A stretch of DNA of 64,000 nt from Pseudomonadota bacterium (lineage in GTDB: Bacteria > Bdellovibrionota > Bdellovibrionia > Bdellovibrionales > Bdellovibrionaceae): contig JAJTIC010000052.1 of the NCBI GenBank assembly GCA_021300175.1, forward strand, positions 1 through 64,000, written 5' to 3'. This document shows, piece after piece, positions 8,839 through 12,331 of this stretch (the stretch's first letter is position 1; the number at the start of each line of letters is the position of its first letter). A program made the translations under genes and the position numbers. The notes beneath the pieces are model-generated. The model was not told the DNA's origin. It made no database searches and saw only the letters and a list, made by a program, of their open reading frames with translations.

Positions 8839-11592
8839 ATGAACACACAAAGGCTGACATCGAGATTGTGGTTGATTGGTCTAGGAGTGTTAACAGTAGC
8901 CGCTTGTTCTCCTGCTGGGGTGACTGAATCAGCTTCCTCAGTTTCAGGGCTTTCTGCGTCCCTCGATTGTCAGGGGGGAACAGTGAGCGTCTCAGAAAGA
9001 GACTTGGCTGTGATAGGAAAATTAGGTGTTCAAGTGGGTGATTCTGTCACTTACTCTTTGCCCGAATCAGCAGGCTGTGTGGCAAGTAAAGTGGAGTGGG
9101 TGACCTCCCAGTCCAAAGCCTTATTAGAAGATTCTTCACTGGTGACTGAATTTGAAAAGCCAGGTCAGTACGTTGTGGGAGCACAGCTCACAACAAAATC
9201 TGGTCAAGTTCAGTGGTTGGGTGCGGCGACGACAGTGGTGGTTGCTGATGAAATGAAAATCAGTGCTCCTCAAATTGGTTTCGAAATGGTGGAAACAAAT
9301 TTCCAAGTGGTGATCCCGCAAGGAATGAATATCCAAAATGTGGCTTGGAATTTTGGCGATGGCTCGAACGGCAGTGGCACGGCTACGATGAAAGTCTATA
9401 GTTCTCAAGGCTCTTTTCTGGTGACAGCTGTGGTGACAGATGTTGGTGGACGAACTGTGACTTTGCAGCAGCCAATTCAAATCCTTCCTTTGGCGGATGA
9501 GCTCTTTTGCGCTGGGGATCTTGCCATCTCGGCACCTTCTGAGGTTTCGGCTGGAGATCCAGGAACTTATACGGTCGTGATCCCAAGTTGTTTGAACAAT
9601 TACAGCCCTCAAGTCAGTTGGAGAATGGGCGATGGCACACGGCTTTCCGGAAACTCCGTCGATCATACCTATGCGGCCAGCGGTGAACGTGTGATCCAAG
9701 TCAGCATTCGATTGTCCCATCCTTTAGTCACTACCTTGAATCTCACTCACGCAGTCACTGTGATTTCTTCAGATGTTGATCTTAATAAATGTTTGCAACT
9801 CGGTGAGCAGAGAGAACGTTTTTCTGAAAATACAGAGGAAATGGTCGCTTGCGGGCAGAACGGTCAAAGAAAGGACACATACCGAAACCGAATCGTCGAA
9901 AAGTGTGACTTGGTGGGTGAGTATTTAGATTGGACTTTGGTGAGCTCAGCTCGAGAGCTGGTGTCTCAAGGAACATGTGAAAATCAGTCTTGCCAGTTGA
10001 CGCTTTCTTCTGGCGAAGTGCGTACTCTTCAAAACGGAGAGTCCCTCACTCTGTATTCCGAGAAAACGCCCGTAGGAAGCTGTTCTGAAAATTCACAAGT
10101 GCGAACTTGCAATAACGGAGTTGTTTCAGGAACAGATTTCTTTAAAGAGCTCAATTGCAACTCAGGTTGCGGTGACTTTGGTCGCCATGGAACACAGGTG
10201 ATTGGGATCGTGATCGGTCAAACTCAAGTCCAGAAGCAATGTCAGTTTGGTGAACAAGGGATCTTTGACACATTTACACAGATTGCAGACCGAGTCTGTG
10301 ATAATGGAAGTGTGACTGAAAGCAATGCACGTCAAGGAACTCTGACTTTGAGTGGTTCATGCCCCGTTTACAACTGGGTAGGGACGGACAACTACACGGC
10401 TTGTACAGCGGATTGTGGTGGCGAACAAGCAAGACTCTTTGAATGCCGAAATGACAAAAATGAATTGGTGGATGAAGTTCGTTGTGCATCGCAAAAGCCT
10501 GTAGAGACAAGAATTTGCGATGGGAACCCTCAAGCTGTCCGAAAAACAGAAGTGAAAGTGACAGAAGAGGACGGAGGACAAAGTGCCACTTGTCCGTCAA
10601 ACCAAATCGGTGTGATCATGAAGTACCGAGAAGTGACCACGACAGTTCAGTACGCTTGTCTGAATCATCAAGTCGGCGTTGAAAGTGAAGATGTTTCTTA
10701 TGGTCCTTGGATTGAAGAAAAATACTGTCGAGATTTTGTTGCCCGACGATGTTCCCATGACTCACTGTCGATCCAGCAAGCACAAGGTCGCTATGAATGG
10801 ATGGTGAAGTGTCAGGATCAAGTCCCTATGATCAAAGAATTCTTGACTGAATTCGAAGATGTGAAAGTGGCGAACAAAGACAGAAATGGAAATACAAGCA
10901 CTTGGACTCTGAATGGAAAAGGTAGAAAACTGTACCCCACTTTCATGAACAGAGCCACAACGCCTGAGAAAGTTTGGAAAGCGCCTGTTTCAAAAACAGC
11001 TTCATGTGAAGTCCCAAATACGGTCTATGTCGCAGCCGTGTGCGTGGCCTCTTGTGCAACGCCCGAACAAGAAATCATCGCTCAAGCCAAAGCAAACCAG
11101 AAGCTTGGAAAAGTTTCTTTCATCGAAGCTTTGACCCAGAATTACGGCTTCGTAGGAACTTTAGCTTCCAATCGCAGTATGGCCGAGAAACAGATCAAGA
11201 AAACTAAAGTGGACCAGTGGGTTACAGAGCTTGTGGATTCAGAGCACCAGATCCTGAACTTCAAGATGAAATCAGGCGGAACCCTCAGAATCACTCCCAA
11301 CCATCCACTCGTTAGCGCTGAAGGCTTTATGAAAATGGCTGAAGAATTCAGAGTCGGTGATTCTTTAGTGAAATTAGGCGGTCAATTGGATGAGATCACA
11401 CAGATTGTTCCAGAAATCTATTTCGGGAAAGTCTACAACGTCTTCGTGAAGTCCAATGCTCTTCACCACAATATTGTGGTGACCAATGGATACTTGAACG
11501 GAACCGCGTTCTATCAAAATGAAGGGGCCAAGAACTTGAATAAAGCCCTGTTTAGAAAGAAAATCATCAAGGGCGCATTTCCCCAAAGATAA
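8839..11592 (+). CDS. Large surface lipoprotein with PKD, TSP1-like and C-terminal Hint modules
   Basis: The 917-residue protein begins with a lipoprotein signal (TVAACSPAG, Cys near residue 23). Two PKD-type Ig-like domains follow (WNFGDG near 170; WRMGDG near 260), then a cysteine-rich stretch. Around 512-560 is a thrombospondin type 1-like module: W, then CTADCGGEQARLFEC, RC, and ETRIC. From about 735 to 895 is a Hint (hedgehog/intein) fold: candidate Cys735/Cys739, block B TPNHPLVSAEGF (His822), FRVGDSLVKL, and a final HHNIVVTNGYLNGT. Hint domains can self-cleave the polypeptide at a cysteine. An adhesive, self-processing surface protein is a reasonable inference. The next gene starts 13 bp downstream. 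Confidence 0.78.
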   Translation: MNTQRLTSRLWLIGLGVLTVAACSPAGVTESASSVSGLSASLDCQGGTVSVSERDLAVIGKLGVQVGDSVTYSLPESAGCVASKVEWVTSQSKALLEDSSLVTEFEKPGQYVVGAQLTTKSGQVQWLGAATTVVVADEMKISAPQIGFEMVETNFQVVIPQGMNIQNVAWNFGDGSNGSGTATMKVYSSQGSFLVTAVVTDVGGRTVTLQQPIQILPLADELFCAGDLAISAPSEVSAGDPGTYTVVIPSCLNNYSPQVSWRMGDGTRLSGNSVDHTYAASGERVIQVSIRLSHPLVTTLNLTHAVTVISSDVDLNKCLQLGEQRERFSENTEEMVACGQNGQRKDTYRNRIVEKCDLVGEYLDWTLVSSARELVSQGTCENQSCQLTLSSGEVRTLQNGESLTLYSEKTPVGSCSENSQVRTCNNGVVSGTDFFKELNCNSGCGDFGRHGTQVIGIVIGQTQVQKQCQFGEQGIFDTFTQIADRVCDNGSVTESNARQGTLTLSGSCPVYNWVGTDNYTACTADCGGEQARLFECRNDKNELVDEVRCASQKPVETRICDGNPQAVRKTEVKVTEEDGGQSATCPSNQIGVIMKYREVTTTVQYACLNHQVGVESEDVSYGPWIEEKYCRDFVARRCSHDSLSIQQAQGRYEWMVKCQDQVPMIKEFLTEFEDVKVANKDRNGNTSTWTLNGKGRKLYPTFMNRATTPEKVWKAPVSKTASCEVPNTVYVAAVCVASCATPEQEIIAQAKANQKLGKVSFIEALTQNYGFVGTLASNRSMAEKQIKKTKVDQWVTELVDSEHQILNFKMKSGGTLRITPNHPLVSAEGFMKMAEEFRVGDSLVKLGGQLDEITQIVPEIYFGKVYNVFVKSNALHHNIVVTNGYLNGTAFYQNEGAKNLNKALFRKKIIKGAFPQR

Positions 11593-11605: not shown

Positions 11606-12331
11606 ATGAATCGCGGTCAAACCCAAAAAATAACTCTGAGCCTAGCAATCCTGATCGGATTGTTAGGCCTTTTTTCACTCTTTCGTTTTTTTGAGACCCA
11701 ATCAGAAAATCCTATTTCCGAAGAAGTGTTGCGAGAGTCTTTGGCCCAGGTGCCAGGAGTGAAAGTCTCTACAGGCTCCCAGGCAGGGGTGGCTGCAGTT
11801 TCAACAACCACACAAAAGTCCCAGCAATTTCTGCCAGAAAAAAATTTTCAAGATCCCGCAAGAGATCAGTTCCTAGTGAGCTATATCCAGAGCAAAAGCC
11901 AAGTTTTTTTGAGCGAAGAGAATAAGAATCGGCGTGAACAAGCCTATCGGGATTCTGCCCTCTTTGACTCTCTCACTCGTCTTCTTCGAGCAGCCGAGAG
12001 CTCAGAAAATGTCCTCGCCCAGCAGAATTCAGCCAGCGAGTTTCTACAAGACGCTATGGAGCAAGGTTCAGAACTTGCTTTCGCGACAGTGCTGGATGTG
12101 GTGCAGTCGGGAGTGATCGAAAACACAGAGGTATCGATGGCCACCCGAGAGCATTTGGGTGGAATTGCTGGTGAGTTGATGTTTCACTATGTCGCTCATG
12201 AGCCCGAAGCTATCGGAAAGTTGGAGCAAAGTCTTCCGGGCCCTGTGAGTCGAGCCATTTTCAAAAATGTCATGAGTGTTCGCGAAGCCAATCTCTCAGA
12301 GTCCCTCCAAGAACTTTCAAAAGGACGATAA
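11606..12331 (+). CDS. Hypothetical protein with N-terminal membrane anchor
   Basis: The 241-residue protein has one hydrophobic segment at about residues 9-27 (TLSLAILIGLLGLFSLF) with basic residues before it, so it is probably an inner-membrane protein with a periplasmic body or a protein with an uncleaved signal. The rest is largely helical and acidic, with no cysteines and no motif I recognise. It begins 13 bp after the Hint-domain lipoprotein and is preceded by GGGAGTGAGAC, so the two are almost surely one transcript and may be functional partners. Its stop lies one base from the convergent trhO stop. Confidence 0.7.
   Translation: MNRGQTQKITLSLAILIGLLGLFSLFRFFETQSENPISEEVLRESLAQVPGVKVSTGSQAGVAAVSTTTQKSQQFLPEKNFQDPARDQFLVSYIQSKSQVFLSEENKNRREQAYRDSALFDSLTRLLRAAESSENVLAQQNSASEFLQDAMEQGSELAFATVLDVVQSGVIENTEVSMATREHLGGIAGELMFHYVAHEPEAIGKLEQSLPGPVSRAIFKNVMSVREANLSESLQELSKGR

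Follow-up and report, generated by a model that had tools for sequence, protein, structure and literature searches.

A candidate self-processing lipoprotein of Bdellovibrionota with a C-terminal Hint domain and an adjacent membrane-anchored partner

The natural roles of Hint domains beyond inteins and Hedgehog proteins are poorly known. A 64,000-nt stretch of Bdellovibrionaceae DNA (hereafter, the window) contains a gene for a 917-residue lipoprotein that was initially annotated, from the letters alone, as ending in a Hint fold. This raises the questions of whether the fold is real, whether its active site could cut the protein that carries it and which genes accompany it. The locus belongs to an exported Hint family spread through a phylum that has predatory members; the putative catalytic pair of the family is conserved, and its partner gene was never seen without the Hint gene. 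The source organism of the 917-aa protein is presumably a predator as well. Exported bacterial proteins with C-terminal Hint domains are already known, and what is new here is the partner gene and the operon.

Layout and domains of the lipoprotein

The features of the locus are as follows; ‘pre-Hint’ is our own name for the Cys-containing domain just before the Hint domain.

8839–11592, + strand: PKD/TSP1/pre-Hint/Hint lipoprotein gene, 917 aa, ATG start (open reading frame read from the sequence)
8839–8907, + strand: signal peptide and lipobox, residues 1–23, predicted lipidated Cys23 (sequence; Cys nearly invariant at this site in the alignment)
9316–9459, + strand: first PKD domain, residues 160–207 (best PF18911 stretch)
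9511–9762, + strand: second PKD-like domain, approximately residues 225–308 (second PF18911 stretch; borders set by eye)
9781–10353, + strand: Cys-rich region, approximately residues 315–505 (sequence and invariant Cys in the alignment)
10387–10521, + strand: TSP1 module, residues 517–561 (PF19030)
10744–11052, + strand: pre-Hint domain, residues 636–738, with Cys638, Cys658, Cys723 and Cys735 (co-conserved with Hint in long and short forms)
11053–11505, + strand: Hint domain, residues 739–889 (PDB profile search and structure comparison)
11053–11055, + strand: Cys739, the Hint Cys1 nucleophile by structural alignment (kept in 63/64)
11293–11304, + strand: block B T-P-N-H, Thr819–His822 (His in 64/64; position 819 Thr in 61/64, Ser in 3/64)
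11506–11589, + strand: conserved C-terminal tail past the Hint fold, residues 890–917 (Gln893 and Asn901, 55/57 each)
11606–12331, + strand: partner gene, 241 aa, with N-terminal membrane helix, linker and predicted alpha-solenoid domain (profile, model and neighbourhood)

Neither the partner gene nor the pre-Hint domain, which is conserved, figured in the initial annotation, whose coordinates for the 917-residue reading frame and lipoprotein-type N terminus (residues 1–22, then Cys23) hold. Its two PKD domains were recovered by a Pfam scan of the protein as two stretches of PF18911 (PKD_4; E = 9.3e-16, 58.1 bits against a cut-off of 27). Its TSP1-like module lies under the PF19030 cut-off when the whole protein is scanned (E = 5.2e-4) and above it, at 27.0 bits against 23.8, when an 80-residue stretch is scanned by itself; PF19030 matches 16/16 aligned family members (best E = 4.4e-9), and a profile of the region finds just two thrombospondin-1 chains in the PDB (E = 0.023 and 0.029). 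The protein thus carries both PKD and TSP1 domains. A weak Peptidase_S8 match (residues 446–500, E = 0.077) falls on an HGT-like stretch of a Cys-rich repeat, and we attribute this apparent subtilase to chance.

Identity to orthologues is 41–48% in 16 of the 18 other alignment rows, and 28 and 32% in the last two. By median identity over 18 relatives, the best-conserved regions are pre-Hint (61%) and Hint (59%), against 28% for residues 45–215, the PKD part. Because pre-Hint and Hint exceed the PKD part in this measure, selection would appear to hold the pre-Hint/Hint module, and not the adhesin-like part, most tightly. Elsewhere in the same genome, one locus (L002, G000:C28) shows local similarity to the PKD region and ends in a long T-T-V-P-A repeat near a contig end.

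The C-terminal domain is predicted to have a Hint fold

In Pfam, the 917-aa protein matches PT-HINT (E = 0.0038) and Intein_splicing (E = 0.0029), both under the curated cut-offs. Of the 19 sequences aligned over the Hint region, Intein_splicing matches 18, PT-HINT 15 and Hint 8 at E ≤ 0.1. A family profile run against the PDB gave 20 hits at E ≤ 1, one to a CRISPR protein and 19 to chains of inteins or bacterial intein-like (BIL) domains; these were counted by chain name or entry, with Foldseek results helping to complete some of the names. The chain MJ0781 we take to be the KlbA intein.

An AlphaFold2 model built from 14 sequences, in which residue 1 is residue 605 of the protein, is middling in quality (mean pLDDT 70, pTM 0.51), and model residues 135–137, around Cys739, have pLDDT below 50. 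Its C-terminal part gives 57 Foldseek matches at E ≤ 1e-3, the best 50 of which are all inteins, Hedgehog proteins or BILs. In VIA, the best match of the same model has a Z-score of 15.9 and an rmsd of 1.9 over 137 aligned residues, and Hedgehog Hint domains score 15.0 (6tyy) and 14.7. The PDB family profile and the structure comparison place the predicted Hint fold beyond chance, which bears out the profile-search check on which the initial annotation had staked it. The domain has three attributes of the Hint superfamily: the fold, Cys, Ser or Thr at position 1, and a block B of the form T-x-x-H.

Active-site residues

In most VIA rows, model residue 137 pairs with intein residue 3, and model residue 135, Cys739, is therefore the counterpart of intein Cys1. 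At the other end of the fold, model residue 285 (Thr889) pairs with position 440 of the Mtu RecA mini-intein (2in0), which ends in His-Asn; the intein His-Asn pair thus corresponds to Gly888–Thr889 here.

The set in which conservation was counted comprises 34 long, 23 mid-length or short and 7 divergent sequences, 64 in all, distinct in the sense that their C-terminal 150 residues differ; some of the 64 are near-copies, and the relatives share ancestry. Cys739 is kept in 63/64, Cys735 in 63/64, and His822 and Gly888 in 64/64 each; residue 819 is Thr in 61/64 and Ser in 3/64, and position 889 varies among S, T, D, E and A, with Asn in 0/64. Of the two candidate cysteines proposed initially, Cys739 stands as the probable catalytic Cys1 by structural alignment, and Cys735, at position −4, is probably structural. 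His822, from the TPNHPL block singled out at the same time, is the block-B histidine of the Hint domain. Residue conservation fits an active self-processing domain.

The same counts bear on the reading that the Hint domain is a structural leftover, which folds without cleaving and acts as a stable C-terminal cap or partner-binding domain. Pre-Hint occurs together with Hint and is conserved to much the same degree, as if the two formed one structural unit, and one relative (L043, with Gly739) retains the partner gene and most other features, so the gene can survive without Cys1. However, the near-complete retention of Cys739 (63/64) and the full retention of Thr/Ser819 with His822 (64/64) across long, mid-length, short and divergent forms is more than a scaffold needs, and we consider a leftover unlikely. 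The Gly739 variant (L043:1839-4838) is a natural one, and an Asp-rich and Gly-Gln-His-Pro repeat is inserted within its Hint domain.

For a self-processing domain, the preferred reading, the residues also indicate which reactions to expect. The family shares with inteins (RadA, KlbA, RecA, DnaE) the fold and the N-terminal half of the active site but has neither a C-terminal His-Asn nor a C-extein (+1) nucleophile. Because Gly888–Thr889 stands in place of the His-Asn pair, N-terminal cleavage or transfer would be expected, and splicing and C-terminal cleavage would not. No similarity to intein block G was found over the 64 sequences, as is the case for type B BILs, which lack this block and cleave without splicing (excerpts of PMC4031507). 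Cleavage uncoupled from splicing would accordingly be the expected chemistry by likeness to type B BILs as described in excerpts of PMC4031507 and PMC5874633. The family differs from type B BILs in its weak profile similarity to a bacterial intein-like structure, 2lwy (E = 0.048), and in the placement of its Hint domain at the very C terminus.

That position also bears on a pretoxin Hint, the kind of domain with which polymorphic toxins free their C-terminal toxin part. PT-HINT does rank with the nearest Pfam models. However, only 28 residues follow the fold in the 917-aa protein, with no toxin domain past Hint, the protein ends 157–195 residues after Cys739 in 61/64 relatives, no relative with a variable C-terminal domain was seen, and the product of the following gene is a membrane-anchored protein of exported type rather than a small cytoplasmic immunity protein. 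We regard a pretoxin as highly improbable.

Exactly five cysteines occur in the pre-Hint plus Hint stretch in 50/64 sequences, Cys739 being the fifth. The raw total of cysteines past the signal region, obtained with a rough lipobox/signal-peptide rule, is odd in 56/64 (29/33 proteins of at least 800 aa and 27/31 shorter ones). These counts support, but do not prove, a state in which the four other cysteines of the module would be paired, Cys638 with Cys658 and Cys723 with Cys735 by prediction, and Cys739 free. Redox traps, or disulphide switches, occur in inteins. A Cys735–Cys739 switch of this kind is not favoured here: the two residues are lost independently (L043 loses Cys739 and keeps Cys735; L116, the sole Cys735 loss among the 64, does the reverse), and the counts suggest that Cys735 pairs inside pre-Hint, leaving Cys739 free.

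A partner gene downstream of the Hint gene

The partner gene starts 13 bases past the stop codon of the lipoprotein gene. A profile of 13 partner sequences matches 34/368 phylum genomes, all of them among the 61 with a Hint gene; in 33 of the 34 the partner lies directly downstream of the Hint gene, and in the other (G273) one gene stands between them. In 22/32 long loci with an HMM match, the partner start codon overlaps the Hint stop codon. This near-constant side-by-side encoding suggests that the two proteins work together, and the partner is apparently obligatory for this variant of Hint lipoprotein.

A mechanical test for a small membrane protein downstream found one at most three genes away in 46/64 loci and as the first gene in 38/64; the test passes over borderline helices and over contig ends, and we judge that it miscounted one nuclease (L106). 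As its background (47/267 ORFs) includes the partners themselves, the HMM result is the one relied on. In the DNA covered at some loci, such as L104, L090, L121 and L117, no partner lies near the Hint gene. Other neighbours in the window, namely a PilZ protein, TrhO and RF3, did not recur next to the Hint gene at any other locus searched.

In the predicted partner structure (mean pLDDT 81), the helical domain, approximately residues 81–238, has most block means above 90. Its likeness is only to alpha-solenoids of the HEAT/ARM type (best VIA Z 9.2, rmsd 3.7 over 124 residues), and Foldseek gave zero matches at E ≤ 1e-3; the modelled fold points to no specific function. Lipase foldase-type chaperones share its plan of a downstream gene encoding a membrane helix, a linker and a helical domain. 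No foldase appears in the best 50 matches of either Foldseek or VIA and no match is significant; a chaperone role of that kind would be conjectural.

Other architectures

Short relatives (approximately 260–400 aa) consist of signal peptide, pre-Hint and Hint only, without PKD or TSP1. In several of their operons the Hint protein is followed by a Peptidase_S8-type lipoprotein, a small membrane-helix protein that resembles the partner, and an approximately 940-aa LRR/kelch protein. Pfam matched all ten proteins scanned, five such lipoproteins (C-terminal Peptidase_S8) and five LRR/kelch proteins. The operon was seen downstream of short or mid-length Hint genes at L134, L125, L138, L132, L123, L124, L133 and L135, and the partner itself directly follows a short Hint gene at L113 and L103. 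The Hint module thus adjoins a lipoprotein gene in some lineages and is fused to a lipoprotein in that of the 917-aa protein, an arrangement suggestive of a shared task, as far as gene order can tell.

A PDB profile search with the N-terminal 430 residues of the LRR/kelch protein, considered as a possible pore-former, gave nothing convincing. The genome of the 917-aa protein has no LRR/kelch (gene 4) homologue at E 0.01 in a search run without a positive control, and the subtilase-domain lipoprotein (gene 2) finds there only weak matches, all within query residues 474–616, its subtilase-match region.

Five divergent short Hint proteins (L085, L086, L117, L118 and L120) have a W-C-x-C-G-C start. 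Directly downstream of four of the five is a small membrane-helix protein without recognisable similarity to the partner.

Proposed mechanism

We think it reasonably probable that the 917-aa protein is an exported self-processing lipoprotein, with the adjacent membrane-anchored alpha-solenoid protein as its dedicated partner. Judged from conserved residues, the Hint domain probably cuts the lipoprotein from its own end. The lipoprotein would be exported and anchored by Cys23, and its remaining cysteines would pair while Cys739 stays free. The Hint domain, aided by Thr819 and His822, would then turn the Ser738–Cys739 peptide bond into a thioester, which water or another nucleophile would break. 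The expected products are an N-terminal part that runs to residue 738 and stays lipid-anchored, and a C-terminal fragment of approximately 179 residues (about 20 kDa). The partner would most likely aid folding, hold the lipoprotein or receive the activated part.

Alternatively, one specific nucleophile could take over the thioester, the role that cholesterol plays for Hedgehog, so that the Ser738 C terminus becomes joined to a surface molecule or partner protein; the tail or the solenoid partner would bring the acceptor. Points in favour of such a transferase are the conserved tail (Gln893 and Asn901), the tightly linked partner gene and the alignment of the model to Hedgehog Hint. No acceptor is known, however, and the tail has just about 28 residues, and we hold a transferase to be rather unlikely. 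The Hedgehog autoprocessing domain (1at0, 6tyy) resembles the family in fold, Cys1, block-B His, C-terminal position and export, but no sterol- or adduct-recognition region was recognised in the family; by model and alignment its tail is short, conserved and helical.

The boldest form of the idea is a bacterial counterpart of Hedgehog processing. The Hint module, exported and assisted by a dedicated solenoid protein anchored in the membrane, would convert the C terminus of a surface protein into an activated thioester and couple it to a specific acceptor. Bdellovibrionota would re-use the module in two ways: Bdellovibrio relatives as a fusion with a surface lipoprotein, other lineages as the product of a gene next to that of the lipoprotein. 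We offer this as speculation with rather long odds. If the thioester is indeed transferred and not hydrolysed, it would provide a bacterial route to covalent attachment of surface proteins.

Relation to described Hint proteins

C-type BILs of predatory bacteria were reportedly described by Dori-Bachash in 2009, with Hint-superfamily domains in Bdellovibrio bacteriovorus. C-type BIL proteins are large and exported. A link between C-type BILs and a PPS-1 domain is given in excerpts of PMC9185962, and it is possible that the 917-aa family overlaps these proteins. Part of Burglin 2008 (PMC2362128) describes a group of bacterial proteins, from Myxococcus, Stigmatella, Photorhabdus, Serratia, Yersinia and others, that carry a Hint-like domain at the C terminus; signal peptides occur in some of them, and two upstream Cys are conserved. 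The 917-aa family is like that group in plan, as far as this description goes, with a C-terminal Hint domain, signal peptides and conserved upstream Cys; the same excerpts mention neither the fusion to a PKD/TSP1 lipoprotein nor the solenoid partner, two features of our family. We recognised no paper on the 917-aa family in the open-access literature, and the excerpts of PMC2797640 and PMC12546842 contain nothing on it.

Distribution and phylogeny

A search with the 917-aa protein matched 28/66 genomes of the bacterial family, the weakest through PKD domains only; a Hint profile matched 42/140 genomes of the order, and a pre-Hint plus Hint profile 61/368 of the phylum, with pre-Hint travelling with Hint. 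Named Bdellovibrio records belong to the same bacterial family as the full-length relatives, which makes the source organism a relative of Bdellovibrio; one orthologue is that of Bdellovibrio bacteriovorus strain kdesi (NZ_CP102930.1; L040). In genus g4, the protein family is present in 14/24 genomes and absent from 10/24. Because of these absences, and because the short relatives lack PKD and TSP1, the adhesin envisaged initially, one that is shed or matures on meeting prey, is still guesswork.

A tree of 57 sequences groups 33 of the 34 long forms with two mid-length forms in one 35-row clade with support 96/84; the remaining long form (L083) falls outside it on a long branch. Different exported Hint proteins, also with a C-terminal Hint domain, occur at L087 (G012:C16, 1060 aa) and L088 (G002:C4, 1039 aa); this type, which may or may not correspond to the described C-type BILs, was found in 2/66 family genomes and not in that of the 917-aa protein. 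The phage records searched held no match to the Hint family. One genome (G119) carries three copies, namely a long form and, on contig C4, two mid-length Hint proteins (L081 and L082) approximately 53 kb apart. The plasmid pBdHAGR2 of Bdellovibrio sp. HAGR004 (L142; AP029178.1, 32900-36354) also carries a Hint lipoprotein and its partner, annotated as hypothetical proteins HAGR004_41540 and 41550, whose genes overlap by 4 bases.
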